A DNA stretch of 64,000 bases from Odontesthes bonariensis (Eukaryota > Chordata > Actinopteri > Atheriniformes > Atherinopsidae), in assembly GCF_027942865.1 (NCBI RefSeq), contig NC_134510.1, positions 27,521,209-27,585,208 of the forward strand, in the 5' to 3' direction. Shown here piece after piece: positions 19,308 to 62,515 of this stretch (position 1 is the stretch's first letter; each line of letters starts with the position of its first letter). A program made the position numbers and the translations under genes. The notes under the pieces were generated by a model. The model made no database searches. It was not told the DNA's origin and saw only the letters and a list, made by a program, of their open reading frames with translations.

Positions 19308-19354
19308 AGCCACTGATTAAAACTTCTTTAAGTGTGTAGATGAGAACTGCCTTC

Positions 19355-25173: not shown

Positions 25174-25215
<42 letters not shown>

Positions 25216-35893: not shown

Positions 35894-38211
35894 ATGAAGA
35901 GCACTCCAATGACACCCAACGGGAAGAGTCTTTATTGTGCTCTGCTGGTGGCGCTTATAGGTGAGAACCATTAATTTACTGACTTTTACTATGATTTAAA
36001 AACCTCATAAATGAGCAGCTTGTTCAGTGTGATAGTAAGAGCACTGATGATATGACGGTCAATGAGTGTAAGAGATATAAAGTTCAGTAACTAACTTCAC
36101 TTAATTAGAAAATTAATACTAGCTACTGACAATCAATAAGCTGGAAATATAAGGCTACGGTACAACAAAGAGAAAGAGAGAGGGTGTGAGGATACAATGA
36201 TGCATACTTTCTCAGCTATCACTCAGAAATTAGTTATAAATTAGTGATAACCACAAAATGAGACTTGTAGAGTCAAAAACCTCCTATTTGTATGTGCTAA
36301 CACAGGCATTGTTAACCCAAGCAGAGTAAGAATACTGCATCTCCACTTAATACCTCACACTTTAATAGCTGTGATGAATGTTCCTCTCACTCAGGTTCGC
36401 CAGCTTTGGGTACAACTCTGCAGATCTCCTGGACTGGCGGGGTGACAGCTGGCTCCCGAACTACGTTCACCTGCTCTTCTTCTTGTTTTCCCAACTGCGT
36501 CTACACCTGGAACTTTAGGGGCAGGACGTACAATGGGAGTACATTAGCCTGGACACCGGATGGACTGGATGATACAGAGGAGCTGCAGTGTATCGTCTTC
36601 AATCCACGAACAGGACTCTACACCAGGACTACTACCATCGTCAAAATTAACAGTGTGTAGTAGTGGACAGAAACTAAATACTATTGCTTAAATATTACAC
36701 TTCACAACTTTTTCATGCAGCTCTGTACTTCTTGTCCATCACTTGTTTTGACAGCTCTTATGACTTATTACTTTTCAGATTGGATTCGACATAAAAAAAA
36801 AACATGAATATGTGATAATGTAACACAATATGAATTTAGTTAAAGATCCTTGTAATGTTTCTGAGGTTTTAGCAGCGACTCCTGTTCTAAACTTTGAAGA
36901 GGGTCTATAAGTTTGATATTTCAGGCCTGAAAAGATAAAACTGTTCACTTTTTCACATCAGCGATTGTTTTATAATGTTTCTATATTTCACAATCCCTCA
37001 GGTGTATCTTAAGACCCTTTTGAGGGGTCTGTTTCATAGTTTGAAGAGCCACTATCAAAACTACAAAAAAGCCGCCTTATTAAACTGCTTTAACACCAAT
37101 CAGTATTCAGGAAAAACAATAAATTATACTTTTAGTCCTGTGTTTTGTGACATTTTGCAGATAATACTCTGTTCTTTTACTTAAATAAGGCCCAAAACAA
37201 AACAAATGTTCTCTCTCTCTGAAGTGATGCGTGAGAAATGTATTGAACCAGTTTTAGAAGATGTTCATTCATGAGATGAGTTGGAGTGATTCTTCTTTCT
37301 TAATCAATTAAAAATCTTCTCTTTTGGGTTTCCTCTCTTACAGATCCACTGTCTGTACAAATCAGTCCACCAAACACTGTTCCATCGCTCAACCAGTCAC
37401 TGAATCTCGTCTGCCATAATGCTGCAAATGGTGACCCTCGAGGACCACCAGAAGTCGTCTGGTACAAAGATGGACAGAGAGTGACTTTACGTGAAAACAT
37501 GCAGCTCCTGCGAAACAACCTCACGCTTCACTTTGACTCACTGTTGCCCTCTGATGCTGCTTTCTACCACTGTAACACTGATGTACCCACACTGGATACC
37601 AGCGTTTTCAGCTTGGGCTATTTACTCAGCTGTAAGTATAAAGATGGACGAGTAGATTAAGCAACAAGGATTCTTTTTTTTGTTAGTAATTGTTATAAAC
37701 TCTCTAATCTTTGTAGTTGTTCCTTGGAACGTGAGCATCAGTGGACCAGACGCCGTATTTCCCGGCAATTTGAGTCAATTCACCTGCCTGACCAGCTGCA
37801 CCCTAAATGTTGAATGTACTGTCAGGTGGGAGTTCAGAGGAGGTTTTCCCATCGGAACGTTCTTTTCAGTAAATGCAAATAAGCTCAGGTGGACTCCTTC
37901 GATTCCTGGGACTTTCCAAAACTTCACTTGCATTGCAGAAAATAAAGCTGCTGGACGCTCAGCTGAAGCCACCATAAAGGTAGAGGTTAAAGGTAATGAT
38001 AACTCTTCAGTATTTGCTTCTTTTTTTGCTGTCGTTTGTTCATTTTCAGCAAAATGTTGAATTCAATTTAGTGACTTTTTCCCTGTTTGTCATCTTTACC
38101 TAAATAGGACTTCTGGCTTCCGGATCAGATGCAGTGCAGCTCAGTAGACTTTTTCCATTGGGCCTTGCTGTTGGACTTTGGATTGTACATTCTTTACCCA
38201 TAAAGTATTAA
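35894..38211 (+). CDS. Three-Ig-domain surface protein with GPI-like end (gene E), 330 aa
   Basis: Exons: 35894-35960 signal peptide (LYCALLVALIG); 36395-36652 Ig1; 37344-37631 Ig2; 37717-37992 Ig3; 38108-38211 end. The sum is 993 bases and the frame closes at TAA 38209-38211. Ig1 and Ig3 share an unusual pattern: TC-x3-C-x3-C or TC-x2-SC-x5-C after the B strand, then W-x-F-R-G and L-x-W-T-P, suggesting an extra disulfide and an internal duplication. Ig2 is ordinary (VVWYKDG ... DAAFYHC). The last exon gives SGSDAVQLS then a hydrophobic stretch (LFPLGLAVGLWIVHSL) and no cytoplasmic tail, as in GPI-anchored proteins. It is more distant from the CEACAM-like neighbours and has no V domain. Family name uncertain. 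Confidence 0.82.
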
Positions 38212-38414
38212 CTGGTTTGTTTTCCCTGTTCCCTGTTCCCAAATGTATTGACTCGTCTGTTTAATCATGAATCGCCACTACCTGCTAAACAAAAGAAGGA
38301 ACAGTCAGGTAACAAAAACTTTTGGGGCCTTTATTTAAAGTTTTTTGTCCATTTTTATTACCGAAACCTTGCAAACATGTGAAAATAGATTGTTTGTTCC
38401 ACAAGGGACTTAAC

Positions 38415-38420
38415 AATAAA
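38415..38420 (+). terminator. Polyadenylation signal of gene E
   Basis: AATAAA about 200 bp after the stop codon. Confidence 0.6.
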
Positions 38421-40769
38421 GCCTGGTTGCTCTTTGGTTTATTCACTATTCAATACTTTCAAACCTCAACACACAACAACAACATTTCTTTGTAAGAAAA
38501 ACACTGTGACACACCTGCATGTGGTCATTCTCTGAGCTTCACTGACAGTCAGTAAAACTGCACTGACTCAGTGATCAGCTTTCTTCACATCCATCAAATG
38601 TTTCCTGAAATTCAGTTTAATCATTTTCTTTCAAGGTTAAAAGTTTTGTCAGAGGTGTTTCTCCATAATGACATCAGCTTGTTTTCCTCCCCACCCTCCA
38701 CAAGTCAGCATCATTAGATGCTGTAAACATGACTCACTAACTGATTCACTCATGCTGAATAGAACCCATGAAATCACAGGAATTACACTAAATTAAAGGA
38801 CTTTGAGGCTTTTTTTCATGTTAAGCTTTTCAGTTGACTTGCAGAAAAACAACTGTTTAAATCCTTTGTGGACTTTATCGTATCTCTCACATTTAGTTGA
38901 ACCCCTTTTCTTTAGATTGGGAATCAAAACTAGAGAGTGATTTTCAACTTTTTTGTAGTTGACCATCTGTGCATTCAAGTTTTTGTTGAAACACTTCTAT
39001 AACCACAACCTCAAACTATATTTCTGCGATATGAGATGTTGCTTTTGTTGATCTGTAAAGCAGTGCTACAAACATTAACAGCAGCATCTCTAAAAAAAAA
39101 CTTTACAGACAAAAATACTATAAATAAAATAAAATAAATGTCTGGACATGGTTTTCTACTGTTGCTAATTATAAGTTAATATTAACTGTTGACAGATAAC
39201 TGTTATCTGAGATGATGTTTTATATGATAACATATGAACGTATGTAACATGCATACATTAATTAACACAAAAACACGCACCAGAAAACAGTACAGTCAAT
39301 ACACTGTTAGTGTTTTGGAGCTTCATGTGAAGTGCGGCACAAATACAGCGAATGAAATTACAGCTAATTTAGCATTTCTCACATGAAAATGTTATGATGC
39401 TTTTAATGACCAAACTGTATGATAGAATTCAAGAATTTTCAAAATGCTCATAGCTATAAAAATATTGATACAGGAATTCAAGTTTATATAATTTTTTTAA
39501 GTGAATGCATTTCTGATTCTTTTCTTATTTCCATTCTTCTGTATTATATTTGTCGCACCTTTAGTTTATATGGTGGAGTTCTGTCGGTTTGCCAGAAGGA
39601 GGCGCTGTGCACTCATGAACGTCAGATATGAACTAAGTGTGAGAAAGTTAGGATTGACAGAGAAATCAGAACATTAATCCATAATGATGAGGCAATGGAC
39701 ACACTTTTGTGTGTCATAAATTGATCATAAGTTAGGTGTTACTCAGCAGTTTTGGCAGTTACTCAGAAAGTTATGAGAATGAGCTCATGGGTCTGCATGT
39801 CCGAGACACCCACTACACCTTCACGTGAACTGCAGTTTAGTTCAGTTTGGTTGAGCTTAGTTTGGTTAGTTTATGATTAACCCTAACTAGCACTTAATAA
39901 TGACATTGTTGGGACAGACTCAAACAGTTTTCACAGATGTGTATACCATTCACTTCAGGCTCTCTGCCAAGCAAAGGAGGATGTCTCTGCTGTTCTCTGG
40001 AACTCTGGTTTCTCCTATCTGGGTATTGTATAATACAACAATGACATATGGGCATCTGAGAATCAAGTGGCAGCCACCCTCTTCTTCTACTTCCTAATAA
40101 TAGCTATTGTTTTCATTCTTTGAGGAAGGTCTGCTGTGCACTTGGTTAATTTTGTTATGTCAGTTTTATTGTACGTGCACTCAAGTGCAAACATTTGCAT
40201 GTCACATAAAACAAACAAATAAAAGCAGGATTTGCATTAGTACTCTCAGATTTTAAATAGAGCACAAATGGGATGATAGCAAGACTGTTTCTATCAGCTT
40301 ATATACGTCATGCAAATGAAGATGAGATATACTCAGGGAGTTTGGGTTATTCTTGAAAATTCAGCTGAATGGAAAAATGTTGAAGCTGCATTTCATTCAA
40401 TTTATTAAATGCATCACTCATTCATAACATAGCCAAGAAACCACAGCACTTGATAATAGGGCAGTAGCTGTGGGTAGGGATGACCTGCCGTGCCTTTCTT
40501 TATTGCAGTGTAGCTGAAGTCTCCAAGAAGTTTGTTGTCTTGTGTTAAATGTAAGGTTGAATGTGAAATTGTGTACAGATACCAATGTTACAAACAAAAT
40601 TTGGACAATCGCAGATACCATTTGTTTTTGCCAAGACGAATAACCATGCACACTCACTCCTAGAGTCAATTTAGAATCACCTATTAACCTAACATGCATG
40701 CTTTTGGGGGGTGAGAGGAAGCCAGAGTACCCGGAGAGAACCCACATGGGGAGAACATGCAAACTTTAA

Positions 40770-40965
40770 TATTATTTTTAAGGATTTTATTGGCACTAGT
40801 GGCCCTTATTGGAAAGTTGCTTAACAGGAAACGAGAGCAGAGAGAGAAGGTAAGGACATGCAGCAAAGGGCCCTGAGCCGGGTCTCAAACTGAGGGCAGC
40901 TGCAATGAGGTACTTCAGCCTCTGTAAATGGGACGCCCGCTCAACCAGTTGAGCTAACCAGCACC
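40770..40965 (-). mobile_element. tRNA-derived SINE
   Basis: The minus strand begins GGTGCTGGTTAGCTCAACTG (A box) and continues to GTTTGAGACCC (degenerate B box), then the typical fish tail CCCTTTGCTGCATGTCC and a 3' end with AATAAAATCC. It interrupts the common repeat whose halves lie at about 40660-40767 and 40976-41010. Confidence 0.75.
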
Positions 40966-41012
40966 AGGAATAAGGATCCCTTTTACTGTGAGGCAACAGT
41001 GCTAATCATTTA

Positions 41013-41014
<2 letters not shown>

Positions 41015-41061
<47 letters not shown>
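41015..41061 (+). repeat. TG microsatellite
   Basis: About 46 bp of uninterrupted TG dinucleotides. Confidence 0.95.
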
Positions 41062-41064
<3 letters not shown>

Positions 41065-42334
41065 AGAAATTTGAATAAATATAAGGCTGTCAAGCCGTGG
41101 ATAGCAATGTCACCACATATTCCTGCGTAGTTTGCATGTTCTCCCAGTGTTCTCTCCTTGGTTTTTCTGCAGGTGTGCTTCCTATTACAGGTCAAACATA
41201 AGACGATTGATTTAATTAATAATTCTAAGTTCACCACAAGCATGAACAGTTTGATTGTCTGTCTTTCTGTGTCCTGTAATGGACTGACAAGCTGTCAAGG
41301 GTGTACATAGTTAAAGAAACATGCAGCTTCCTGTGATCCTGTATATGATGAAAATAGGTGTGGCTAATGAATGTATGAAGATTCAAAACTAGATTATCTG
41401 GCCTTTAATTCTGCTGCTCATACTGACCTTTGTGCTGTACAAATAAACTCAACAGCAATCACTTCTTCTATGCGTTGTGCATTACACAGGTGCACTCCGA
41501 AACTGGAATTTGCATCACCACAGTTGAAATGATGCCACAGGAGTTTCTGAGGTCTATTGTTTGCCTACTTAACATGTAAAGTTAGAAAAGGCAGCATTCC
41601 TGAATGTCAGAAACTGATAAGAAACTGCTTGTTTGAACTGTGAGATTCAGAATTGTGAAAATGCGTAGCAGTTTGTCTCTTAAGAAAATAAATGTCTGTA
41701 ATCCATTTCTTTGTTGCTATCTGCAAGATTCAGAAGACTGAGTACACAGAACAGACCACATCCCAAGGTACAATACAAAAGCTCATGCAGTTGATTTAAT
41801 TCTGAACGTAAACCAGCTGAGAACATGTTGACCATCACACAAATACAGAGCAATGAAAGTGTCATATGTCAGGCATGTATGTTAAAATTTACTGGTGGAA
41901 AGAGAAGAAACATTACAAAATCTAATCCATAGAAGTTGGTTTGGGAAGATAGGATAGACAGGATACTGATGTGCAAAAATATGTGATAATATCACTAATC
42001 AATAATTAGATTATCGATGATATCAATAATATCATCTTTGAATCATCTAGCCATACAAAAAAAAAAGGTTTAACTAACAAACAACACAACCCCCACTCAC
42101 CATCATGCCCCACATACTTTCTGTCCTAATTTGTCATTTAACAAAACTTCACCCTGAAAGGCAAACAAAATGTTATCACCTTGTGTAAGTTTGTCAAGAC
42201 TGGACACCAAACATCCAGAAACACCTGCAGATAAGAAGTGAGGTTGCTGCTGAATAGATATGGGGCTGAACACACAGTGGACCACTATAACAGAGGGGAA
42301 AAACGTAAGAAGATTGTCAGACCACTTGAACAAA

Positions 42335-45106
42335 ATGGAGAAGAAGTTTGATGGAACCTCAGCGATTGTTTTCCTGGCTTTAATGCACAGTAGGCCCTGA
42401 TAGATTTAAGATTTTCTGATTAAACCTAAGTGGTTAAAACTGTAAACTCATATGTGGGTTTTGTGCATTGTATATTACATTATATCTTCTCTCTATCAGG
42501 TTTTCTAGCCTCGGATGCTGTTGAGGTCAAGCCTTCCATCAACCCTGCTGTAGTCGGGGGCACGGTGATTCTGTCGCTGTCTCCCTCGGTGACGTTAAAA
42601 GGCGGAAGCTGGGCAGTGGGAGAGTCCCTTATCCTAACCTGGCTGGGGGACCAGCAGGCGGTTTTCTCCGGTTACAGTGGCAGGGCGTTTGTTAACATCA
42701 CCACCGGGGCGCTCACTCTAAGCTCTCTCACTGTGGCAGACTCAGGAGTCTACAGGGTGCAGAGCAGTGACCCCCAGCTGACGGTCAACACTTCCGTCAC
42801 CGTTGTGGGTGAGAAAAATCAGATGATGATATATGTTTATAGCTCATTAAGGTTCATTCATTACAGTTCAATCGCTGCAGCATCTCCAAAGAAATAGAAT
42901 ACAAAACAAGAACATATGTGTATATTTACACATATTTATTTACAATATTACAATATTACAATATTTACAACACATATTAATATACAATATATTTACAATA
43001 TCAGGAGTCAAACAAGGTGAAGGGACAAGGACTAGTGTTGTGTAACTGATGGTAAGAGGAAGTGAAAAATGTGCTAATGATGTATTTACTCTGCCTTTTT
43101 ATCGGAACAGGTTCCTGTTGTAATGAAAAAAGGGTTTTTACAAAAAGGTCACAGGTGGGGAGTTTAAGGAATTCACGTTCTTGCCTCGTGATATTTGGAC
43201 TGATAACTATGAAACTATGAAAAAGCATGCCTAATAGACAGCTTGTGTTTTGGTTTTGCTGCCCTTTCGGCCACATGACTGTGTCCTCAGGGTGTTTCAG
43301 TCAACACACACCTGTATTTATCCTTTTGTGGTACAGTGTACTTGATCCTTTAGTTCAACGGAGTCTCGTTTTCAGTAAGGAGAGACTATCTGAACTTTCC
43401 TCTTTCGTATATGGAAAAAATGTGCACGTGTAATAAATGTCTGCTGTGTAAAATGTAAAGTGCGCACCTGCTGTATAAGAGCTGTTTTTGACCACACAGT
43501 GTTTAGATTTTGTTTAAATAAGTTTGGATGCCATAAAATCTGAAACAACCAACTACTACCTGAATATTACATTAACTTTTAAAATAAATTCTACTTAGTA
43601 TAAAAATGTTCTAAGGTGTAAGTAATGTCTACATTAACGATTATTTTCTTTCATAAGCATCTGTGAGATGACCTGAATGGGAACAGATTGAGTTGCCAAG
43701 TTGTTAAAAATAAAAACACCGTCGCAGATTTGTGCTTTTAGATTTCTATATATTATTTTAATTTGTATTCTATGGGAAGATCAAACCAACCAGCACCAAA
43801 ATCAATTATGACAAACATCTTAAAGACTCTTTTGATGAGATATGTTAAAAGTGTTGTGAGTCACTGAAAAGGGATCGTTAGTTTTCAATAACACATTTGA
43901 TCTGCTGTCGTAAAAAGTAATTGTAATAAGCATTACTGAAAAATACAGAATCAGGATTATTATAAATGCATACAATCAGCATTTTCTGTATTTGAGTCCA
44001 ACACAAATATTGTGGCGTAAAGTCTATTCTTATTATGTCAAAATATTATCTTTTCTTCTTGGTAAGATAAATTATAAATGTTGATGAAAATGTCTTTTTA
44101 ACATCCCTAAAATCAGTATTGACGTTGCACATTTTCACTTTTGCGAGTAAAGATAAAATATGATGAGCCCTTATGGTCACCAGTGAGTTAATGAACATAT
44201 TGATTAATTCATTGATCTTCCACAGAACCTGTTTCAAATGTTACGGTCAGTGTGAATCAAACTGACCTGACTGAGTTCCAGAGTTCAGCGGACATTAAGT
44301 GCTCCGTCTCCTCTGGATCCTCCCTCTCAATCATTTGGATGAACCACAGCTCTGAGGTTACAGCCAACGACAGAGTTCAGCTCACTGATGGAAACTTCAC
44401 ACTCACTATAGTTAATGTGACCCGCTACGACTCTGGACCATTCAGGTGTTATGTGCTTAATCCTCTCAGCAATGGAACCAGTGATCCAGTACATTTCATC
44501 ATCAGCTGTAAGACAAACTATTTTAATCCAACCAATATTTGCTATAATACCCCAGAAACAATGGTTGAATTCCACTAAGTTTTAAAGTATACCTTTTTTT
44601 TGTACCCGCTCCTCTCTCTGTCTCTTTCTCAGATGGCCCAGACAATATGGCTCTCACTGTGAATGGACTGAACATCACTTCCTTTCAAAGTGGATCCAAT
44701 CTGACCATGCTCTGCTCTGCAGAGTCCAATCCCCCCGCTCAGCTTCAGTGGGCTTTCAGAGGAAAACTCGTGAACAGGACAGACACATTGTTGGAACTGT
44801 GCCATGTCGGGGAGAACCAAAGTGGTCCATATTCCTGCCTGGCTTTTAACAACCAGACTAAAGCGCACAACTATATAACCACACACATCGTGATATCAAG
44901 TAAGTTTGTTTTTTCACAACTTTTTTAACAACTCTTATTGTTTTTTTAGTCCTCATCTTTATGTTTTTGTCTCTGTAGATTCTGGATTGGACCACCAGGC
45001 GCTGAATGTGTTGCTTGTTACTCTGCTGATACTGGCTGGATTCACTCACACACTGGAAGGCAAGTTATGGAGAAACTTGATACTTTCATATCCTTTTTTT
45101 AGATAA
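42335..45106 (+). CDS. CEACAM-like protein, V + two C2, short anchored end (gene F), 346 aa
   Basis: Exons: 42335-42389 signal peptide ([10 protein letters not shown]); 42500-42808 V-type Ig lacking canonical cysteines ([12 protein letters not shown] ... DSGVYRVQ); 44226-44507 C2 A-type ([10 protein letters not shown] ... FRCYVLN); 44633-44899 C2 B-type ([17 protein letters not shown] ... YSCLAFN); 44979-45106 hydrophobic end ([17 protein letters not shown]) and stop TAA. The sum is 1041 bases and the frame closes. The V exon is more GC-rich than its surroundings. At 45059/45060 there is a GC-type donor (GAAG then GCAAGT); if used, splicing to about 45463 would give a different, very short end. 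Both versions lack signalling motifs, so GPI anchoring is plausible. AATAAA at 45851-45856 may be the poly(A) signal. Confidence 0.85.
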
Positions 45107-45850
45107 ACAAAGACTTTTGTTTTATTTTTATTTTTTTTTAGCAGATAAGCTAAAAAGAATGTCATCCCCTGAAATTCTACATAAATCAAAACCAAATCAA
45201 AATTTCTGGTCTAAATCATAATAAAGACATTTAGATATATTCTGTAAAACCTTTTCAACATCTATTTGATTGGTAGTTAGGGTTTAGTCAATGCTGCCTC
45301 ACTTGCTTTTGTCTTCAGAGTGAGGGAGTACACACCATGAATTTCTAGTTAATTTAAGAATAGACTTGGTAGTATTCAGAAAATAGAGACAAAATTGGTA
45401 CAGTTTGCATACCCACAGAGTTCATTAACATGAGAAATAAAAACCTGCCTCTCTTTCACAGATGTCTGTGACTCATTAAGACCCTGAATGACTTCGATGC
45501 GATGAAGAAAGTCTTACGTCAGTCTTGTTAACTGTCCAATTGTATGTGATTCAAAGGTGAGGGAAACAGAGCAAATGCTAAAATATTTTTAACTTTTCAG
45601 AAAGACTACATGTCAGTAATCACATGGTAGGTCTTTGTGGTAGGTTTAAAGGGCTGTTTGAGGCTCTGGTTTTGGGTAGTAGGTTAGGTCATAGAGCAAT
45701 AAGTCAGTGGTGGGTTCCCACAAATCATTGCTAATTTAATCGGAAAAATAGATGGAAAGTAAGCACTATTTTTCCAACCATTTTTCCTTTCCTTTACTTT
45801 TACATAAGCAAAAATTGTAGAAAAAGGTTTGTTAAGAAGTCACAATTCCC

Positions 45851-45856
45851 AATAAA
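45851..45856 (+). terminator. Polyadenylation signal of gene F
   Basis: AATAAA about 750 bp after the stop codon, in CCCAATAAAGCTG. Confidence 0.5.
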
Positions 45857-47746
45857 GCTGCTCTCATTTACTCATTTCTCTGTTTTTGTTGCAGTTGAAT
45901 GTGTATGTCATAATGACTGAAACAGTAAGAGTCAATACAGTACAATCGAAAAGTTGTTTAAAACAATTAATTTGGGATTTTACGTGTAACAAACACATGC
46001 ACAGCTGTCTGCTCCAGGACACAGAATCATTCCTACACATAATTCTCTTCTCCTTCTTGCTAAATTTGTCATAATCTGCTTTTTGTTTAAAGTGTTTAGA
46101 CGGTTGCAAAATTTTGTTTCTGAGCCATTAGCGATACCACAAATATAGAAAAATAAGGATTTTGTGGCATGTATGTATGTGTGTGTTGATGGCTATTTGT
46201 GCAAAATCATTTGCTATGTTATCTGTAGTAAATTACACTTTGTATGTTTTGATTCGATAATTAAAATATGAATGCTTTTGACCGTTTCCATAGTCACTGC
46301 GTTCACTCATTTTACTGAATTCTACCTGAAGAAAATACTTTTAAATTAAATTCAGTTCAATCTTATTTATATAGTGTAATGTCATCACAAGGCAACTCAG
46401 AGATACAGCCCAAGTCAAGACAATCATAAATCAATTAATTGCAGTACAATCATAACCCAATCCAATCAATTTGATTAAAATCCAAATTTCATACAATGTC
46501 AATTCCAGAAATGTTGCCAGGCTAAGGAAACTGATAGATTGCATCAAAAGTTGTCTTTGATCAATCCCCATATTGAGCATGCACGAAATGACGGTGGAAA
46601 CAAAGAAAATCCCCTTTAACAGGATGAAACCTCCAGCAGAACCAGACTGAAGATGGGCGCCCATCTGTCTCGAACAGATGGGTGAGAGGAGAGGAAAGAG
46701 GGAACAACCAGCCAAAAGTGCAGCGTCACTTACACCAAATACGAAACCAGGTGCAGGTAGATCAACAACAAATGAATGTTATCCCTAAATCAAATCTGAC
46801 AGTCCCATGTCTGCGCTGTCTCTCAGTGTTGTATCAATAGGTCTTTGTTGGCAACATTCTAATGCTGCCACTCACGATTTAGTGTTTGGTTACCATCATA
46901 ATAAAGTAATATATTCAATACAAAGCTGAGGAAAATCCCCTTTTATGTGACCTTTAATATGATCTCATACAGTGGAGGTTAATGGCCTGCGATGTTGTTG
47001 TGGCTCCATAATGTTAAACCATTATTCAGCTGTTAATCGCTTGTTCTCTTTTTGAAAGATACCGCTATCATTGAAGAGTATCATCTCTTTTGTAAATAGA
47101 CAAACAGGAAATACTGGATGAGTTTATGTTGAGTATAACTTTACAGTCAACACTCCAGGAGAAAGAGCACATCCAGTACGACAATGGGAGAGTCTACTGC
47201 CCCATATTACATCCTGTCAGTCTTGGTTATTTCCTCAATTCACTAGATGACTTAACTGTCCAGTGGGAGGGTATTTATCATAACGAGCTTGGTTTACTTT
47301 ATTTGACCTAGTATTCACAAATTTATTCCACCTTTACTTAATCCTTCGATAGAAAAAGCAAAGAAATTAGATTTAAGCATGAATGTGTCATCAGTTTCTT
47401 TGTTTGGGTACAAACTGATAACACAGTGACCTCACAAAATACAATGCAATTTCATGCAATTTTCTGGTAGGTTAACGTTGCCAAAAGACCGATTAAAGTT
47501 TACAGTAAATGAAGACACCAAGGTGAGCACCAGTATACCATCAGTATACGAGGGCAAAACAAGGTGTGGCCATGACTGGGGGAAAGCATTTGCATCAAAA
47601 GATCTGGTGTGATTTTTGTTCAACTACTTGCTGATTGAAGTCCTGTGCGAAAACAACCAGACGCCAGATTTGAATTTATCAAAGCAAGAGACCAGTCCAT
47701 TTAATTTACAAAGAGGTTTTCAACTGAAGAGAAAGTGAAGAGCAAA
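45857..47746. other. Intergenic with a common teleost repeat
   Basis: The segment 46335-46735 contains TCAGTTCAATCTTATTTATATAG and CCCTTTAACAGGATGAAACCTCCAGCAGAACC, words typical of an abundant percomorph repeat. The remainder shows no recognised gene. Promoter elements of the next gene were not identified. Confidence 0.6.
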
Positions 47747-50700
47747 ATGAAGTCTACAGTGGTGTTTGTCCTAACCCTGACCACAATAACCTTTGCAGGT
47801 ACATTTAAATTATTTTTAACTTTTACATCTTACTTTTTATTCATAGAATTTCTCTGCTCAGGCAATGAGTTTAATGAGTTTTACAGTTTAATGATTTTGA
47901 TGATAAAAATCTTAAATACACATCTTAAAATTAAATATGAATGTCTTAAAATGTGCTATTGTTGAACATTGCAGTGTTTTTATATGAGCTCTTCACCAAT
48001 ATCTTAGCAATGTTTGGATGGATGAGGAGTATTTTCATTCTATTTCCTTTCTGTCTGTTTTTAGGTCTTGTGCACAGCCTGCACATAAGCGCCTCTGAAA
48101 ACGTCTTACTTGTTGGCAGCAATGTGACACTTTCCAGCAACGTCACTGTCGAACGCTGGTCATGGAGGTTCAATGATGTTACAATTGTGATTGTACTCCA
48201 AGGAAGTTTTTATATAGGAAAATCTTGGGAGAACAGGACAACTTTGAATTTAACAACGTCATCCCTGACTATAAGGTCACTAACAGTGGAAGACTCTGGA
48301 GAGTACACATTTGAAAAACTGTCCGGCGATACTTTCACAGAGGTGTTAAAACTGTCGGTCCAAGGTAAGGACTTTCTTACATTTTCTGTTTATTCACTTA
48401 TATCTTATCCCAAGCACATTGAAATATTCAAAAGGTTACACACATCCATGCATGTGAACTCTTGAGCGACTTGATCTTGTGCCAGCTCGTGTCAGCAATT
48501 TCTCAAAATATGCAAACCTAAATGGAAATACAGAATATAAAGACAAAAACTGAGATTGTACAAATTGAATGAGCTTGAAAGTCAGTATTTGTTATGTGGA
48601 CCTTTATTCTTCAACACAACCTGAACCCTCTTAGACAAGCTTTCTGGTCGTTTCTGGTAAAAGCAGTCCTCAGGAATAGTTCCCCAGGCTACTTAAAGGA
48701 CATTTCAAAGTTCTTCTTTGGATGTTGGCTGCCTTTTGTTCTGTTCTCTGTCAAGATGATCCCACACTGCTTCAGTAATGTTGAGATCTGGGCTCTGGGG
48801 AGGATTCATCAGTCCGTAAGACCTGTTGCTTCCTATTTTCTGTTTGGCATTATTGCTCAAGACCCTTTTAAAAGATGACAAGAAAGTTTGGCTCATTGGT
48901 AGCAAAATTTTTGCACAATACTGTAGGGCTGCTTTTTCTTTTACACCTAGCAGCCGAACTCAGCGTGATTTAATCGAGGCTCTGCTGGGACTTAGCTCTA
49001 AGTTTTCACTTTGACTATGAATAAATCTATTTTTATGGAAGTTTTTCTGTGCCATCAGAATTTGAATACGAATTTCTAATATTGAATTTTTACAGCATCA
49101 AAATCAGACTTTGAATTTGAAAATGCTCGGGGAGAACATGCAAACCCCACATAGAAAGGCTCTAGTCGGGATTCAAACAGGGGACCCTCTTACTGTGGCG
49201 GTGGCCACAGCACTCTGCAGCCCGAAGCTTAGTCAATGCATTCAAATTTTACAATTACATTTTTCTCGTAAAGCTGTGAAAACTGAAACCAAAAACATCA
49301 AGCTTGAGTTTATTCAAGATGAAGAAACGAATATTTGCTGCATTTGGAAAAAAGGGAAATGAAAAACAGCAGAAAAATAAGATACAGAAAACAAATGCGC
49401 AAAGACATGTGTTGTCTTTACAGACTCATAATTGCACTGACAATTGCAGCATGAGGGCAAAGTAGCAGGAATGAAAACCTTTCTTAAAACTTGCATTACC
49501 CTTTTGAATAATCCAAGTCATTAATATAAGATCATTCATGAGCAGCATTCATTTTGTCTGTGAATTTTCAGCAGAACAAATTGCAAATTTGCTGGAATTT
49601 TCAATCCATCAAACCTGACAAATGCCTTGCTTTTGTTTTCCCTCTCTACAGAGCCTATTTCAAATGTGACTTTGCGGGCCAAATCTACCAATCTGGTGGA
49701 ATTCAATGACACAGCAGTCCTTGTGTGCTCTGTGTCCAGTGGCACGTCTTTGTCTTATGAATGGTGGATGGACAACTCTACAATCACAAACGGAGATGTA
49801 CAGCTCAGCAATAAAGAAGCTACTCTCAGTATAGTTAATGTGACTCACTATTATCAGGGACAATACAAGTGCAAAGTGTCTAATGGATTTGGGCAGGAAT
49901 TTAGCGGCGTTGTACATTTGAACATCAACTGTAAGTTTTATTCAAAATGGATGTACATATAGGCATCTGTATTAAAGCAACAAAAATTAATCCTCAAAAC
50001 AATTCCCCTATTGTTGTGTCATCAGATGGCCCAAGTAACACAACTATGATGGTCATGCCTGCAAAGGAGGTATACAAATCAGGATCTAATATCACACTCT
50101 CATGTGCAACCCAGTCCAGCCCTCCAGCGACGGTCCAGTGGATGTTTAATGACACATACCTGGACCCTTATGGACCAAACCTACAACTGAAGAATGTTTT
50201 AGAGGGAGATACAGGACATTATAAATGTGTATTTCACAACAATGTCACATTCAGGTTCAGCAGTAAAAGTACAATGATCCAGGTCACAGGTAAGGCTTTC
50301 TATTTTTCTTTGGTATTTTTTTTTTCTATCTATCAGCCCGAGTTTAGATTATTTTCAAACAACTGGTGAATGAGCTCATTAACTTTCTTGCAAAGATTTT
50401 GGTCAGTGAATCAAAAATATGGTCACAATGATATTTTCAGGCAGAAGCACTTTTAACACTTGACAAGCAATAGTAGTAGTTTGTGGTTGTTGGTAGGTGA
50501 AATTTGAGGAGCTACATAATGTTTGGACCTGTCTGCAAACTAGGTTTCCCATCAGGGACAATAAAATGACTGAACTGCCTTTCTTTATGCAAAGCTGACT
50601 GAGTCAGCTGTGCCATAGCGTCATGTTTAAAGGACATAAATATTGGTCAATGCGGGCACAAAGGCAAGAAGCATTTAACTGGATATGTTGAGTTATTCCA

Positions 50701-53700
50701 TTAAATCTTTAAAGCAACATGTGCTGTAATCATTCAACCCGTATACATGTGTGAATTTAAACCACAAGTTTATTTGTTCTTTTACAGCTCCTGTGACAGC
50801 TGTTGTAATAAGTCGTACCAGTGGCCCGGCAATACTTCATGAATCCTTCACTCTGAAATGTGAAGTGACTGGACGTGTGGACAGCATTCAGTGGTGGAGG
50901 AATGACCAGCAAATTTCCGCTGACAATAGAGTGGACTTTGGCATTAACAAGACATTGACTCTTAATCCAGTTCAACATTCTGATGGTGGACGCTATTCGT
51001 GCAGGGCTTTTAATTCTGTGAGCAACATGACCAGCAGCCCCTTTGAAGTCCAAGTTAACTGTAAGAACATGATATTTTTTCATCACCATTCCCAAACGAA
51101 AGAAGTAACTGTCTGTTGTCTGGAAACCTATGTGATGCTGTTGTCATTGAAAGTAATATAAAAAATGATTAATGTATTCAGATGGACCAGAGACGCCAAC
51201 TATCACAGGACCAAATGTGGTGAAGAGTGGAGACAGTGTGACTCTCAGCTGCAATGCAGCATCTACCCCAGAGAGCAGCTACGTGTGGTACTTCGATGGC
51301 GGTAAAGTCTCCACTATGTCTAAATATGTCACACCTGCTCTTACCAAAGGCCTGAGCTGGAAGTACACCTGCATGGCTTTCAACAACATCACCAACAAAA
51401 ACAGCACTGCCCATATAATGATTACAGTTGTCGGTGAGACTTGGATACATATCTTTTTTTGTTTCTGTAAAAGAAAATGTTACTTACAAAGACACCAAGT
51501 TGCTGAGAAGAGAACTAAGTGCTGTGGCTTTTGTGTTGTTTCCAGATCCGATAGAAAATGTTCGAGTACAAGCCGAGATGAAAACTGTCATGGAAAGCTC
51601 CTCGTATACTTTAACGTGCAATGTGACTGGAGATGCTGATCACATTTACTGGACGAAGAACAATGAGTCTCTGCAAGAAGATGAGACAATTATTTTCCGG
51701 AATATGAAACTCTTGCTCATTTCAGTGCAGCGTTCTGATACTGGACACTACAGATGCATGGCTAAGAATGCTTTTGGAAACATGACCAGTGCTCCTTACA
51801 ATCTCGTGGTCAACTGTGAGTATGATATTTAAAGGATTTTTTGTGGGCAATAACTGATGACTTTCACACTATGTAACAAAATATTAACTTGTGTAGTTAT
51901 TGAAAAATTATAATCAGTGATTTAAGTTCATACCTGTGTGCTCAGATGGACCAGACATTCCAACTATCACAGGACCAAATGTGGTAAAGAGAGGAGACAA
52001 TGTGACTCTCAGCTGCAATGCAGCATCTACCCCAGAGAGCAGCTACGTGTGGTCCTTTGATGGCCGTGACGTCTCCACTATGTCTAAATATGTCACACCT
52101 GCTCTTACCAAAGACCTGAGCGGGAAGTACACCTGCGAGGCTTTCAACAACATCACCAACAAACAGAGCACCGCCCACATAATGATTACAGTTGTCGGTG
52201 AGACTTGGATACATACCTTTTATGTTTCTGTAAAAGAAAATGTTACTTACAAAGATAAAAAGTGGCTTAGAGTGAAAACTAAGTGCTGTGGCTTTTGTGT
52301 TGTTTCCAGATCCGATAGAAAATGTTCGAGTACAAGCAGAGATGAAACCTGCCGTGGAAAACTCCTCATATGCTTTAATGTGCAATGTGACTGGAGATGC
52401 TGATCACATTTACTGGATGAAGAACAATGAGTCTCTGCATGACAATGAGACAATTATTTTCCAGAATATGAAACTTGTGTTCATGTCAGTGCAGCGTTCT
52501 GATACTGGATACTACAGATGCATGGCTAAGAATGCTTTTGGAAACATGACCAGTGCTCCCTACATGCTCATTGTCAACTGTGAGTATGATATTTAAAGAC
52601 TTTATGCTTATGTATGAAGGGACACATTTATAGTTGATATTTTCTATCTTGCAATGTTTCTATTATGTTTTTATTAGAGTACAATAATGGGAAAATAATG
52701 TAACAAGAACAAGCTATATGTTGATCCACTCACATGTTAACACACGCTCATCATAGACATAAATGTCAAGAAAAAAAGACTTTTGGTAATGTTGTTTGAA
52801 CTGTTTTTTTTCTGTGGCAGGATGAAACAAGTTCAACTGATAAAAAACACAAAATGTACTCACTTTTTTCTTATTTATTGTGAGTTTTCTTAATCAACAA
52901 AGAGCTAAACTCACTTTCAGAAAAGTCATGATGAATTAAGTTTGTGCAGCAACTTTAATATTTTTCTTTACTTTTTAATTTAAAGATGTATGTTGTAGAA
53001 TCCCTAAAAAAGTAACAATAGCTAGCAAGTCACTGGAGGCTTCTGCCAAATTTCTACTGTAATTCAAAGCAGACACATGAAACACAGGCTCTGGAAAAAG
53101 GGCCTTTTGCATTCTTAACAGCGACCATAGTTTCTCCTACAAGCTCAGAAAGGAAGGATAAGATTAGAGGTATCCAACTAGTTTTAACATACAACTTCAC
53201 AGCTAAATATCTCTAAATCTTACACACTGTTCCTTCAAGTTAAGAGACTGCATATTATTAATGGTTATTGAAACATGATAGTTAACCATAAATGACTGAA
53301 CATATCTGTGTGCTCAGATGGACCAGACATTCCAACTATCACAGGACCAAATGTGGTGAAGAGAGGAGACAATGTGACTCTCAGCTGCAATGCAGCATCT
53401 ACCCCAGAGAGCAGCTACGTGTGGTCCTTTGATGGCCGTGACGTCTCCACTATGTCTAAATATGTCACACCTGCTCTTACCAAAGGCCTGAGCTGGAAGT
53501 ACACCTGCATGGCTTTCAACAACATCACCAACAAAAACAGCACTGCCCATATAATGATTACAGTTGTCGGTGAGACTTGGATACATATCTTTTATAGATA
53601 TGTAAAAGAAAATGTTACTTACAAAGATAAAAAAGTGGCTGAGAAGAGAACTAAGTGCTGTGGCTTTTGTGTTGTTTCCAGATCCGATAGAAAATGTTCG

Positions 53701-55806
53701 AGTACAAGCGGAGATGAAACCTGCCGTGGAAAACTCCTCATATGCTTTAATGTGCAATGTGACTGGAGATGCTGATCACATTTACTGGATGAAGAACAAT
53801 GAGTCTCTGCATGTAGACAACACAACTGGTTTCTATAAGGATAAAAAGACACTCATGTTCATGTCAGTGCAGCTTTCTGATACTGGATACTACAGATGCA
53901 TGGGTATGAATGCTTTCGGAAACATGACCAGTGCTCCTTACATGCTACTTGTTAACTGTAAGTATACCATCACTAAGATTCCTACTTCCAACTAGTTCAT
54001 TTGTTTTTGCTACAATGCATCATCCTACATTATTTAAATGGAAAATATCAATAAATATTGAAGAAAGTAAGATTAAATGAATTCTGTTGTAAAGTCGTTG
54101 GTATCAGAGTGTACTTTCTCCTTTGCAGTTGGACCGGACAAACCCATTGTTGATGGACCAACTTTGGCTGAAACCGGAAGTCATGCTGACTTTATGTGCT
54201 CTGCCGTGTCAGAGCCGCCTAGTCATTACACTTGGTGGTTTAACCATGAAACCATGACAGCAAATACCTCTGTGTTTACAATCGACCATTTGTCTTTAAA
54301 CATGAGTGGAGAATACACCTGTATGGCCCACAATCATGTGACAGGAAGGAACAGCACAAACTCCATAACACTCAGAGTCATAGGTATGATGACTCATCTA
54401 AGGCAAGAATTAGATTAGACATTGTTAATATATGTTATGGACCTATATCATAGATCTAATAGTGTTATACGATGCTCTAAATGTGTAAATAGTTTTAATA
54501 AAGTGCAACCAAAATGTCTCACCTTCTACATTCACTGTGTCATGTGTACACAGAGGCAATAGAGTCAGTGATAGTCCACAACGAAACAACCCCAATAAAC
54601 CAGAAAAACTTCACTCTCACGTGTCACGTTGTTGGGCCTTACAACATGACCTACTGGATGAAGGACAACATGTACCTCAACATGAGCACCATGGACCGAT
54701 ACATGTCGTACGACACTGACGAGAACATGCTACACTTCACTCCAGTGACAAGAGACCACGATGGGACATATAAGTGTGTTGCTGTCAATGAGGTTACTCA
54801 ACATCATAGTCCCAAGTACATGCTCCAAGTAAACTGTGAGTGCTGAAGAAAACATTTGTGTTTAAATTAGCTCTTAGAAAACTGTTATTTGAAAATGTTA
54901 TCATTGATGTGTTGGATCAGTCAATTATCTTCTCCACAACTATTACAAGCTTCATGATGAAAATCACTTACACATTAGCTAAAACCTCTGGAACAACATC
55001 TTACATTCGGCAGATTTACTCATTGTTTGTTTGAACAAATGAAAAATGATGTGAATTGAGAGTTATCAATCAGGGGATTTGACACTGAAGAAACATGTTA
55101 TAGATCATTTTGCTGACTTTAATTCTGAGTCTTTCTGTCTCTGTGCAGATGGTCCTCTGAGTGTGACTATCTCTGGTCCTGAGTTTGGAAAGGAAGGCAC
55201 TTCTATGTCCCTGAAATGCTCTGCTGATTCTCGACCAGAATGTCAATTTCACTGGTTCTTAAACAATCAGTTCATGATTCTGACGGATGGACCCGATGTC
55301 ACGTTTGTTGCCATACAAAAGTATATTGGGAACTACACGTGTCAGGCGATAAACCCTGTGACGAATATCACAATGTACCAACATAAAGCTGTAACTATCG
55401 CCGGTGAGTGAGTTTTAGTTTTGATGTTTTCACTGCTGTATCTCCATAATGTCTTTTTTCAGAAAAGCTTACAACCTTAATTTGGATCAATAAGAGCCAT
55501 GAGTTTACTTATGTAATGTCAAAATCCCTCTTTATAATGTTAAATGACTGAAAAACGCAAATGATTGCATCCATCTCACATCCATCGCCATTACTTTGTT
55601 GTTGTTTATTATGTTTAACAGTATTAGAGTGGGTGCTGCACAATTGCAAAATCTCGTAAATGTTATCATTTCTTCTCCATTCAGACATTTATCTTTCGTT
55701 CTCGTTATTTCCTCCAGCTCATGCTTCAACCATCCACCTCCCCACCCAGGGAGGTCTGATGATGATGGGTCTGTTTGCTTTTTCTGCCCATGCGTTATTC
55801 CACTGA
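47747..55806 (+). CDS. Giant CEA-like protein, V + twelve C2 Ig domains, GPI-like end (gene G), 1206 aa
   Basis: Exons: 47747-47798 signal peptide; 48065-48364 V-type Ig without canonical cysteines; then twelve C2 exons at 49652-49930, 50026-50289, 50788-51060, 51182-51433, 51546-51815, 51946-52197, 52310-52579, 53318-53569, 53682-53957, 54129-54383, 54554-54835 and 55149-55403; last exon 55718-55806 with stop. The sum is 3621 bases, closing the frame. All Ig exons are phase 1-1. The domains alternate A-type (ending VN then Cys) and B-type (starting DGP or GP), giving N-(A-B)x6. Human CEACAM5 is N-(A-B)x3 with a GPI anchor. The short hydrophobic end (GLMMMGLFAFSAHALF) has no tail. The exon pairs at 51182, 51946 and 53318 are recent tandem copies. 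Many N-x-S/T sites. An upstream in-frame GTG is not needed. Likely adhesion, mucosal or decoy role, by analogy. Confidence 0.9.
48595..48905 (-). mobile_element. Tc1/mariner-like transposase remnant
   Basis: The minus strand contains PPQSPDLNITEAVWDHLDR, the C-terminal D-D-E region signature of Tc1-like transposases, within broken frames. It sits in the V-to-first-C2 intron of gene G. Confidence 0.75.
49120..49220 (+). repeat. Fragment of common teleost repeat
   Basis: GGGGAGAACATGCAAACCCC...CTTACTGTGGCGGTGGCCACAGC matches the word pattern of 19490-19815. Intronic in gene G. Confidence 0.55.
51182..53957 (+). repeat. Three tandem copies of an A/B Ig exon pair
   Basis: Units start at 51182, 51946 and 53318, each a 252-base exon, a short intron of about 112 bases, and a 270- or 276-base exon. 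Exons and the short introns are highly similar. The third unit is preceded by a longer 738-base intron; the equivalent intron before the second unit is 130 bases. Confidence 0.92.
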
Positions 55807-56592
55807 GTCCTACGCACCATGGAGTCCGGTCAACCTGTAAGGTCTCTTGCGCCCCCTACAGTCTTCTACAGCATTTATATGGCTGGAAAATTGTAGACAT
55901 GCCATATAGTCCATATAAGTCATATAAACGGTAACATGTTGTGATTTCTTAAGTTGAATGTCATAATCAATAGCATACTAGCAGATCATATTAATTGTGG
56001 TAGTATTGTAATAACTGTTGTCACTGGCTATGAAAATTCAGCCAAATTGTGTAACTACACTTGTACTGTTTTGTGATGAAAATCGAGATTATTCCTCTCA
56101 AATACTTCAACACTAATTTGATATAAATTGCATTTATTCACTTTGAGCAAAATGATGAGTACATGTATGTATTTTACCGCACATTTATTAACTGTAATTA
56201 CTTGCTAATCAATTAAAAAAAACACAATAATTGATTTTGTGGACTTTTGTGGCCAATCCAGACAGTTCCAGTCAGCTTAATATACACGACTTGTATAGAG
56301 GGAAAGAGTGATCATTACAGAAATATTAAAAGCATATACGTAGAAGAATGCAGTGTATAAGGATGGACTCCTTTTGTTGCTCATATGGGGACACTGGGAA
56401 CAGAGGGTGGTTTCACGGTAGTCAACTTGCACCTCTTCAGATTCTTATATTTGTGCAGCTGACAGAATTTTTTCCCTTGTGGTTGCATATTTCCAGACAG
56501 ATTTAATGAGAGGATGAGAAAAAAGAAAACACACAAAAGAAATGTGAATTAAAACTTTTGAAAATCTCAAACAAAGACTTTTGAACAACAAA
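55807..56592. other. Between convergent genes, nothing recognised
   Basis: 3' flank of gene G and of the small minus-strand gene. No clear plus-strand AATAAA was identified for gene G. Confidence 0.5.
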
Positions 56593-56602: not shown

Positions 56603-57241
56603 TTATTTTTTAACTGAGTGCAACTCACATTTACGCTGATTGCGTGTGGTGGACTGCTGACAGAGGCAACGTGTTTTCACCGTCTCTCCTCCTAATCCTG
56701 GATGGCCCAAAAACACAAAGAGAGAAGAGCCGAATGGGTTTTTGTGATGCACTTTGACAAGATCCTCGACAGATGCACATTTTTAGTTTAAGTCCTCCAT
56801 AATGCAGTTTTCACCTTTGCAGTTACATGGTCTTTTGTGACGTCTTACGATGACGATTGGATGTGAAGTTGTGGGCAAATTTCCAACAGGAGAAGCTACA
56901 ACAAAATTTATATCAAAATGTACTTAGAAATTAAGTCAAAGTAAAGTCATTGGGATATAAAATACTAAATGACCACTAATGACAAACCACATTAATTGAA
57001 TTGCAATCAATGGAATTAATTTTACATACCAACAGTGACTGGGCTGTCAATTGGGGATAGTTCAAATGTCTCAGGTACCCCTTTGAGAAACAAAAAGAAA
57101 AGTAAAAAAAAAATCACAAAAAACGTGTAGAATTCAAAATTACTTGAAAAGATTAGCTCAGATAAATCATACACTACCTTGGCTGTGATCAGTGAATATA
57201 ATCAGTACAAGAACTGATAGGAAAAGCAGCCTTGGTCCCAT
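56603..57241 (-). CDS. Small secreted cysteine-rich peptide, possible CXCL17-like chemokine, 96 aa
   Basis: Four exons: 57178-57241 signal peptide (MGPRLLFLSVLVLIIFTD); 57030-57080; 56815-56895; 56603-56697. The sum is 291 bases and the frame closes at TAA 56603-56605. The mature part has a basic stretch RRHKR, then C-N-C, twelve residues, C-L-C-Q-Q, nine residues, C, ending CELHSVKK. The last intron is 117 bases with a good pyrimidine tract and CCATCCAG acceptor. If it is retained, a 75-aa form ends at TAA 56783-56785. Human CXCL17 also has four exons, paired CxC motifs, a final C-Q-Q ... C-x-L segment, and lies between CEACAM1 and PAFAH1B3, as here. The Leu-Pro-Leu end of human CXCL17 is absent. 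Orthology is inference; gene structure is better supported. Confidence 0.6.
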
Positions 57242-57350: not shown

Positions 57351-57356
57351 TTTATA
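57351..57356 (-). promoter_or_regulatory. TATA box of the small secreted gene
   Basis: TATAAA on the minus strand within CCTTTATAAAGTT, about 110 bp upstream of the ATG at 57241. This leaves room for a short 5' untranslated leader. Confidence 0.5.
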
Positions 57357-59662: not shown

Positions 59663-62515
59663 TCAGTTCTCAGCAGGCTTGTCAAGCATGGACTTGACAT
59701 GAGCATGCAGAGGTTCACACACAGCTTTGTAGCCATGAGGAGTCAGGTGAAGGTAGTCGTACATGTCCTGGTGGGAGATGCTACCGTTTGACAGGACAAA
59801 GCCAGGGTCTACATCGAGGAAGGAGGAGTGGGGGAGAGATGATACGGCATCCTGGACTAGCTTGTTCACCTTGGTGTTTCGCTCTCGCAGAGGGTTTGGC
59901 ATTTTACCTCTGGGCAGTAAACCCTGGAAAAACAGATGTGGCAATGTTTTTAACAATTTTATTTCTACTCTTAAAATAAATCTAATAATGCAAAAAATTA
60001 GTTTAAGATTTGAAGAAATGTTTCACAAAAGACTAAATCAGAAGCAATCAGACACAGATTTGTACCCTAATGTAAGCTGAAATCAAATTAAGTTTGTTGA
60101 GCCACCAAACATGCATCACTGTCACGTAATTCATCTCAGCCCTCACCAAAACAAGTCCAGCTTGTTAGATATAGTATCTTAAAACCGTTCACACATATAA
60201 TCTAGGAGCTGAACTACTGCAATGTCTGTAGAACTCCGTTTACCTTGTTTTAGAAAGCTGAGATGCTGCTAAAAGGGATGACATCACTATGGAGTTTGAT
60301 GGTTGTATGAACTTCATTTTCTATTTTCAACCAACATGCAGTTGAGTCAATTAAAACTTCCGTTAAGGAATGCATCGCAAAAAACCTACAAGCACAAGCG
60401 TGTGAGCGTGGGGAAGCTTGTTCTTGATGACCTGGACGATAGCCATGATACCACCACAAATCTGTTCAGCTGTGTGGCCGTGATTGTTCGTGCCAACCCA
60501 CAACACCACAACCTGCAGCAACAAAAAGAGATGGGACAGAATGTCTGAGCACATGTCACTGATAGTTTGGTGTCAGTGTACCTGGAATCTCTATTTTAGC
60601 ACAAAGTCAAGCACAATCAATCTTTTGTGTGAATAAACAAGCATGCTCATGTTCTCTATATTTGGCCGTGTTTTGAACCTTTGGGCTGATGTTATCCAGT
60701 TCACCATTGCTCAGCCTCCACAGCACATGTTGTGTTGCATCACCACCCACCCCGAAGTTCAGGCAATGGAGAGGAGAGAACAACTGTCGCCATATCTGCA
60801 GGACAAACAATTTAAATCAAAATATTGGGCATAAATAGAAATTATTTGAAAGCATGTTTATGGAAAATGAAAATCTATTAGAGCCATCACAGTCAAGTCC
60901 ATATATATATTTGGAAAATTACATATTTATATATTTTAGCTAAATTAAAACATATGCAAGTTACAGTTATATTATAAATACATGTGTAAACTGATGACTC
61001 ATCTTAAATATGAGAGCATGCACTTCCAAACAGGAGGGAGGGTTTAGGGATTCTGGTCTTTTTTAATATATAGAACCATGTTCAGGGGGTTTATTTGTAA
61101 TTGTATGCAAGTTTTTATCTTTTATATTCCTAAGAATCATTTGCAGGCAATCACTACCTGAATTGTGTAAGTCATGGGCATCAAAAACTGGATTTTCTCC
61201 TTAGTGGTGCTTAGACAGACCTTGACTACGACTGCCTTCAGTTATTCATGAGACTTTCTCTCTTCAATCTTATTTTGAGTGGGTAGAATGCCACCCACAC
61301 AGATTGAGATCAGGTTATTGACCATGTTATTGCAGAATATTCCACCTCATTACTTTGAAAAACTCCTGGCTCACAGAAGAAACACTTTTTGGTCACTTCC
61401 TTCTTCTCTGACACCACCTATAGGCATTAATCGTCTGAAGCCACTGGAAGATGTTATTGCCCATCCTATAACAATGTGATGCTGCAGTCATTCACCATTA
61501 CAGTCATCTGTGGACATCTGGGCCTACTTTGTTGCCGAGCTCCTCTGCATACGTTTTCTTTTTCAGAATGCAGCAAACTGTTGCTTTTACCATTAAATGT
61601 TCCTGCTATCGCTCTGATGACTATGTTTTGTTTCTGCTACCCAAGAGTGACCTCACTCACATGTACAGAGCTGGTGTGACTGCATATTGGGGCTTTACTG
61701 CAACAGCTTCCAAATTCATATGTATAATTGCAAAACAATTCCAAATTTTGAATAATGAACGACTATTCCACACATGTCCATGGCACAGATTTTGATTCAA
61801 GTGTTCCATAACAAAATCTGTGTAATTGTCCAAATATTATTGGATCTATCGATATGGGCGCGATCAGTGTTTTACCCCAAACTCATGCATGAGCTGAACG
61901 AGAGAGTCTCCAACAAACAGGACATCAGGTTCTTTGTCTTTGCTGTCAGACACAAAGCGGTTGTGCTGTAAATAGAAAAGGAATGAGGACAGATGACCAT
62001 TTTTTCATTATTCAGTATAAAGCATTACACCAATTGTTGTTAAATGGGAAAAAAAATTACTTTGGAAATTGCACACAAAACTTATAAGAAGCAAAAAAAA
62101 TGAAAGCATTTGGCCTATTTTGTTATGATGATACAGACATTTGAAGGCATTTTCTAGGTAAAAAAAATGTCTCAGTGGATGAAACATCACTTTATGTTCC
62201 CTTGTAATCATAATTTAAAACCAAAAACATATACTCCCGTAAGCTAATTCCAACATCTGTTGGAACATCTGTAGCAATTAGCTAACAAACAACGTTTTTC
62301 TCATTTAAAAAAACCCACAAGGCCAAACTGTTTCTAAAATCTGAATAAAAGGATAACTAATATCACTTTTTGTTTTCAAACCCACAAAAGGACAAATCAT
62401 ACAAAGTTCATACGAGCAATGCTATTTCACATACCATAGAAATCCATCGTCCATCTCCTTGGATGTCTTGACAAGCAGTGGGTGTGGCGGCTGGGTTTGA
62501 GTCTTCTGCACTCAT
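59663..62515 (-). CDS. pafah1b3: Platelet-activating factor acetylhydrolase IB, catalytic alpha-1-type subunit
   Basis: Exons: 62435-62515, 61876-61965, 60679-60795, 60390-60512, 59663-59923. The sum is 672 bases, 223 aa (human protein 231 aa). The start MSAEDSNPAATP ... QGDGRW matches the family N-terminus. The GDSLVQLM motif holds the catalytic serine, GGD and GTNNHGHT build the oxyanion site, and DYLHL gives the catalytic Asp and His. The protein is a cytosolic GDSL-type hydrolase that removes the sn-2 acetyl group of platelet-activating factor; it dimerises and binds the PAFAH1B1/LIS1 regulatory subunit. FLDVDPGFV and HQDMYDYLHL favour PAFAH1B3 over PAFAH1B2. Exon 4 ends at GTAGGT (donor at 60389); the alternative donor four bases on would break the frame. 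Introns hold no recognised genes. Confidence 0.93.

Follow-up and report, generated by a model that had tools for sequence, protein, structure and literature searches.

Gene content of the CEACAM-PAFAH1B3 interval

The window, a stretch of 64,000 nucleotides of Odontesthes bonariensis DNA, contains a small minus-strand gene located between CEACAM-like exons (up to position 55411) and a PAFAH1B3-like exon, the arrangement described for zebrafish CXCL17 in PMC12905490. An initial annotation had proposed a fish CXCL17-like peptide gene of four exons at 56603..57241 in a CEACAM-PAFAH1B3 interval, and this setting was confirmed by the exons found on the two flanks. The features of the locus, with the gene in the corrected form described below, are listed here, splice sites being ranked on a consensus matrix against all 7,688 GT and 7,994 AG sites in the window.

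59663..60022, minus strand: PAFAH1B3-like last coding exon (PDB search: PAF acetylhydrolase IB alpha/gamma, 97 bits, versus beta subunit, 87 bits)
57351..57356, minus strand: TATA box (TATAAA), 115 nt upstream of the ATG
57178..57241, minus strand: exon 1, with the ATG at 57241 and the signal peptide MGPRLLFLSVLVLIIFTDHSQ, ending in phase 1 (AAG/GTAGTG); donor in the top 6.9% of GT sites
57030..57080, minus strand: exon 2, 51 nt encoding 17 aa, phase 1-1; acceptor in the top 2.3% of AG sites, donor in the top 4.8% of GT sites
56815..56895, minus strand: exon 3 (81 nt, phase 1-1), carrying a basic stretch and the first CxC motif (RRHKRPCNCK); donor in the top 3.1% of GT sites, acceptor weak (equalled or exceeded by 37% of AG sites)
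56629..56697, minus strand: exon 4, 69 nt, second CxC motif (CLCQQSTTRNQRK) with a GTGAGT donor at its end, phase 1-1; acceptor in the top 3.0%, donor in the top 1.2%
56603..56628, minus strand: 3′ tail of the initially annotated model (CELHSVKK, stop), the start of the last intron in the corrected reading (sequence and splice scores)
56381..56475, minus strand: exon 5, KKFCQLHKYKNLKRCKLTTVKPPSVPSVPI and stop, with the fifth and sixth cysteines and a C-terminal Val-Pro-Ile; acceptor weak
56133..56189, minus strand: 3′ side, with AATAAA at 56189 and 56138
53296..55411, plus strand: CEACAM-like immunoglobulin exons, the end of a longer immunoglobulin exon array (PDB and Pfam)

The CEACAM-like exons were recognized by PDB matches of 53296-53772 to carcinoembryonic antigen (E 1.2e-25), CEACAM6 (1.8e-12) and CEACAM1 (2.5e-9) and by Pfam immunoglobulin domains at 54077-54418, 54502-54846 and 55055-55411; a V-type exon at 21439-21849 matched biliary glycoprotein (CEACAM1; E 5.6e-6). 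Additional frames resembling PAFAH1B3 exons, as judged by eye, were present at 60363-60572, 60607-60816 and 61864-62004.

Correction of the gene model

The 5′ two thirds of the annotated model, from exon 1 into the 5′ portion of exon 4, were retained: as described, the minus strand carries the ATG at 57241, a signal peptide of hydrophobic character, three coding exons that join in phase, the CxC motifs in exons 3 and 4 and a TATAAA at 57356. The TATA box is weak evidence alone, as there are 47 copies of TATAAA on the minus strand of the window. The 3′ end of the model was not retained. The four-exon frame does close in frame, as had been observed, with the last exon running through the GTGAGT donor at 56628 and stopping in AT-rich sequence. 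Splicing from 56629 to 56475 keeps the phase and adds an exon, 56475-56381, that is absent from the annotated model and is the terminal part of a minus-strand open frame (56381-56548) ending in FCQLHKYKNLKRCKLTTVKPPSVPSVPI and a stop codon. The corrected model hence has five rather than four exons (64, 51, 81, 69 and 95 nt), every intron is in phase 1 and the predicted product is 119 aa in length. The AATAAA sequences at 56607 and 56598, annotated as poly(A) signals, would fall in the first part of the last intron, and the tail at 56603..56628 could represent a read-through or early-poly(A) isoform.

The corrected protein has six cysteines, at residues 62, 64, 76, 78, 93 and 104, in the order CXC-CXC-C-C and terminates in S-V-P-I, an Xaa-Pro-Yaa end with large aliphatic residues at Xaa and Yaa, whereas the annotated product, with five cysteines, closes with SVKK and lacks a terminal Xaa-Pro-Yaa. 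A C-Q-Q ... C-x-L segment and a C-terminus unlike that of human CXCL17 had been reported for the gene. As this segment straddles the second CxC motif and the presumed intron, the difference is an artefact of the model and not a property of the gene; the true counterpart is CQLHKYKNLKRCKL in exon 5, and the corrected end is V-P-I. The signal peptide, judged by hydropathy, has a mean Kyte-Doolittle value of 3.4 across residues 5 to 16. Cleavage after residue 21 would leave a basic mature part of 98 residues, and the basic character noted initially was borne out by a calculated pI of 10.2 for the corrected model. Omission of the 51-nt exon 2 would reduce the protein to 102 aa; this exon could be spliced as a cassette or be absent from zebrafish.

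Evidence for the last exon

The two splice sites of the last intron differ in rank, the donor at 56628 being in the top 1.2% of the 7,688 GT sites, versus an acceptor of exon 5 that is equalled or exceeded by 63% of the 7,994 AG sites. Exon 5 is favoured by the lack of any AG in the preceding 79 nt and by a branch-like CTCAT motif 35 nt upstream. A second donor that would keep the phase, at 56634 (GTAAAT), was set aside due to its poor matrix score (24.7% of GT sites score at least as high); its use would cost the protein two residues and leave the six cysteines and the VPI end intact.

The terminal signature was examined across the window. Stops preceded by C-x(5-12)-C-x(4-22) accounted for 224 of the 7,358 stops in six frames, and just one of these 224 also ended in [ILVMF]P[ILVMF], namely that of exon 5. 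Among 921 combinations of donor-like site and phase, two reached a two-cysteine exon ending in [ILVM]P[ILVM] within 500 nt, and both led to exon 5. Dinucleotide shuffles of the downstream 500 nt produced a two-cysteine exon with such an end and an acceptor at least as good in 82 of 20,000 cases, indicating that the terminal signature alone is not overwhelming. The signature nevertheless occurs on the correct strand and in the correct phase, together with the expected number and spacing of cysteines.

Comparison with human CXCL17

In the human CXCL17 query, residues 23-111 were confirmed by Pfam PF15211 (E 6.7e-53), the last eight residues lying outside this match. From this sequence we take human CXCL17 to be a secreted, basic protein of 119 aa with six cysteines in the order CXC-CXC-C-C and an aliphatic-Pro-aliphatic end. 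The corrected protein, itself predicted to be secreted, shares each of these features, the length included, as well as the gene interval; the cysteine steps are wider in the human query (2-23-2-26-7) than here (2-12-2-15-11). Local alignment of the corrected mature peptide to this query gave a score of 54 versus 27 ± 5 for shuffled sequences, with one of 2,000 shuffles scoring as high, or five of 2,000 when the cysteines were held fixed. The annotated model scored 40, a value reached by 28 of 2,000 shuffles and by 64 of 2,000 with fixed cysteines. BLASTP of the corrected protein, run as a single comparison, detected a weak match (31% over 54 residues, E 0.012). The similarity to human CXCL17 beyond composition is thus slight, though it points towards CXCL17. 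The corrected model was derived from the splice site and the terminal motif before the human alignment was run; as the motif was chosen with CXCL17 in mind, alignment and motif are not wholly independent lines of evidence. The human gene is described as lying by CEACAM1 and PAFAH1B3 (PMC12905490).

The profile search for which the initial annotation had called yielded no match between the corrected protein and the Pfam CXCL17 family (PF15211) at E 10. We did not treat this result as decisive, as PF15211 models the mammalian-type sequence and zebrafish CXCL17, according to PMC12905490, also has no overall similarity to mammalian CXCL17. No chain, of CXCL17 or otherwise, was matched in a PDB sequence search. 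The Pfam search at E 10 likewise detected no chemokine domain, the sole match being IL2RB_N1 (E 0.071; 14.1 bits versus a cut-off of 31). Canonical CXC chemokines have a CxC motif in common with this protein and a chemotactic role in common with its namesake; CXCL17 has been described as unrelated to canonical chemokines (PMC10792014).

Comparison with zebrafish CXCL17

The first CXCL17 of a fish, and the first outside mammals, was reported from zebrafish in January 2026 (Biochem J; PMC12905490), and this was the only report of a fish CXCL17 among the literature matches listed. The zebrafish gene (zgc:158701; UniProt B0S594) is described there as being located between pafah1b3 and ceacam1, near cnfn, and as having four exons encoding 109 aa, with cysteines at C47, C49, C60, C62, C80 and C91 and an L-P-I end. 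The recombinant protein is reported to bind and activate zebrafish GPR25 and to draw receptor-bearing cells in vitro, whereas a form lacking the last three residues had lost almost all binding, activation and chemotaxis (PMC12905490). The criteria applied in that report were a signal peptide, a length of <200 aa, six cysteines in the mature protein and a terminal Xaa-Pro-Yaa; two of 795 short secreted zebrafish proteins had this combination, and both were GPR25 agonists.

The corrected protein, at 119 aa including the N-terminal signal peptide, shows each of these properties and is encoded in the same gene interval, so that the CXCL17 identity proposed in the initial annotation is now better supported than it was by the earlier model. 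Comparison by published features places the gene close to zebrafish CXCL17 in its pafah1b3-ceacam1 interval, signal peptide, basic charge, CXC-CXC-C-C order and aliphatic-Pro-Ile end. The cysteine steps are 2-12-2-15-11, followed by 15 to the end, here and 2-11-2-18-11, followed by 18, in zebrafish as calculated from the published positions, the step between the last two cysteines being 11 residues in both. The gene model described here has five exons and 119 aa, versus four and 109 in zebrafish; the additional exon, with 17 of the aa, is the in-frame 51-nt exon 2. The second zebrafish agonist, CXCL17-like (si:dkey-112a7.5, near ponzr5 and ugt5g1; PMC12905490), shares secretion, six cysteines and an Xaa-Pro-Yaa end but has a different cysteine order (CXC-C-CXC-C) and chromosomal place and is, hence, not the counterpart of the gene described here.

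These comparisons, made on genomic sequence and published features, indicate that the minus-strand gene is very probably a fish CXCL17 orthologue: a further member of the kind already known from zebrafish (PMC12905490), with a newly corrected active end. Fish CXCL17 is the best reading of the gene, and there is a high probability that it is the best explanation of the observations as a whole.

Alternative explanations

The four-exon form could itself be a real product that ends at the early AATAAA, giving a secreted peptide with five cysteines and a CELHSVKK terminus that would not activate GPR25 by the known route. Its frame closes, AATAAA sequences lie right at and behind the stop (56607 and 56598), and two splice variants are described for some fish CXCL17 homologues (PMC12905490). 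For such a product to form, however, a donor in the top 1.2% of GT sites would have to be ignored. The peptide would carry an odd cysteine, and its alignment to human CXCL17 is poorer (a score reached by 28 of 2,000 shuffles, as given above); moreover, it would be a coincidence that the one Cys-Cys-Xaa-Pro-Yaa stop in the window lies in phase 154 nt downstream. We consider this explanation very unlikely.

A small, cysteine-rich secreted peptide of unrelated origin, antimicrobial or otherwise, whose likeness to CXCL17 arose by chance in this interval would agree with the lack of a significant match to the CXCL17 profile at E 10, and fast evolution leaves short motifs as the main evidence in any case. 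As cysteine order, spacing, terminal motif, charge and interval all match the functionally tested zebrafish CXCL17 (PMC12905490), this explanation was also given little weight. The weak acceptors of exons 3 and 5, in a model known here from genomic DNA, are what might be expected of a pseudogene or of a chance string of frames that yields no product. The presence of five open exons in one phase, a TATA box, AATAAA sequences on the 3′ side and a terminal signature found nowhere else in the window makes this highly improbable.

Predicted mechanism and significance

If the gene encodes CXCL17, action through GPR25 is likely. The peptide would be secreted, its basic middle would hold it on cell-surface glycosaminoglycans, and the last three residues, V-P-I, would enter the GPR25 pocket on lymphocytes, by analogy with the behaviour of zebrafish CXCL17 in vitro. 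Lymphocytes would, in this manner, be drawn to the producing tissue at mucosal surfaces.

A variant of this proposal, which we regard as improbable, is that one locus produces two ligands, the five-exon V-P-I form and a five-cysteine SVKK form, the latter arising when the 56628 donor is ignored and the poly(A) signal directly behind it is used. The SVKK form would still bind glycosaminoglycans and would not turn on GPR25; if real, it would correspond in nature to the inactive peptides obtained experimentally by removing the C-terminal residues, and the in-frame, 51-nt exon 2 would constitute a second switch.

As recently as 2024, CXCL17 was described as restricted to placental mammals (PMC10792014). 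A further fish CXCL17 in the same interval, recognized from sequence alone, lends support to the view that the CXCL17-GPR25 pair arose before fish and land vertebrates diverged. The three residues that carry the activity belong to a short final exon, which is omitted by a gene model that looks plausible but is wrong, and the active end may likewise be missing from the annotation of CXCL17 in other fish.

Copy number and candidate receptor

The corrected protein was used to search the genome of the same species (945 Mb in 187 contigs). Seven matches were obtained, of which five were the exons of the gene itself and the next two had E values of 4.0 and 6.5. By this search with its own protein the gene is single-copy, and no clear CXCL17 orthologue was found elsewhere; a divergent CXCL17-like paralogue would escape such a search.

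Human GPR25 and GPR15 were also used as queries, with 113 candidates scored per query. A receptor on contig C3 (G000:C3:19547631-19548560) was the top match in the genome for GPR25 among the 118 matches listed and for GPR15 among the 17 matches listed. In a small tree this receptor grouped with GPR15 and GPR25 with a support of 0.98 and was placed nearer to human GPR15 with a support of only 0.54; alignment columns that it shares exclusively with one of the two numbered 43 for GPR25 and 48 for GPR15. Among the best 60 of 245 PDB matches, GPR15 ranked first and GPR25 did not occur. For GPR25, PMC12905490 gives a contact residue at 104 and a Lys at 274. The contig C3 receptor has Trp at the 104 position and a Lys at 268 rather than 274, which does not decide between GPR15 and GPR25 as GPR15 has a similar Lys. 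A myostatin frame was recognized by eye within 60 kb around this receptor and did not settle its identity. Elsewhere, a receptor frame of 527 aa (L012, G000:C12:25214200-25217400) resembles teleost APLNR3 as described in PMC6315173.

Further features of the neighbourhood

Beyond the CXCL17 gene, a TLR-like gene and a retroelement are followed, at approximately 25 kb, by a PLAC8-family gene, which may be cnfn; the ponzr genes, which we take to belong to the PLAC8 family as well, provide an alternative identity. The sequence between PAFAH1B3 and this gene contains a single-frame Toll-like receptor gene with LRR and TIR domains (L009, 4240-7266, minus strand). Large retrotransposon frames are present at 3595-9498, with PNMA-type Gag, protease, reverse transcriptase, RNase H and integrase domains in 3595-8352 and another frame starting at 8356. 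Nearly identical non-coding frames beside them, at 2567-2839 and 9959-10231, suggest flanking terminal repeats.

The CEACAM-like immunoglobulin exon array spans 16321-28526 and 36316-55411. Two near-identical V-type exons within it have opposite orientations (18560-18970, minus strand, and 21439-21849, plus strand), which suggests an inverted duplication. Approximately 30 kb beyond the CXCL17 gene, two look-alikes of CXCR3-type chemokine receptors were detected by eye on the plus strand (L011, 3330-4514 and 7045-8459), so that the probable CXCL17 ligand gene and these putative chemokine-type receptors share one neighbourhood.
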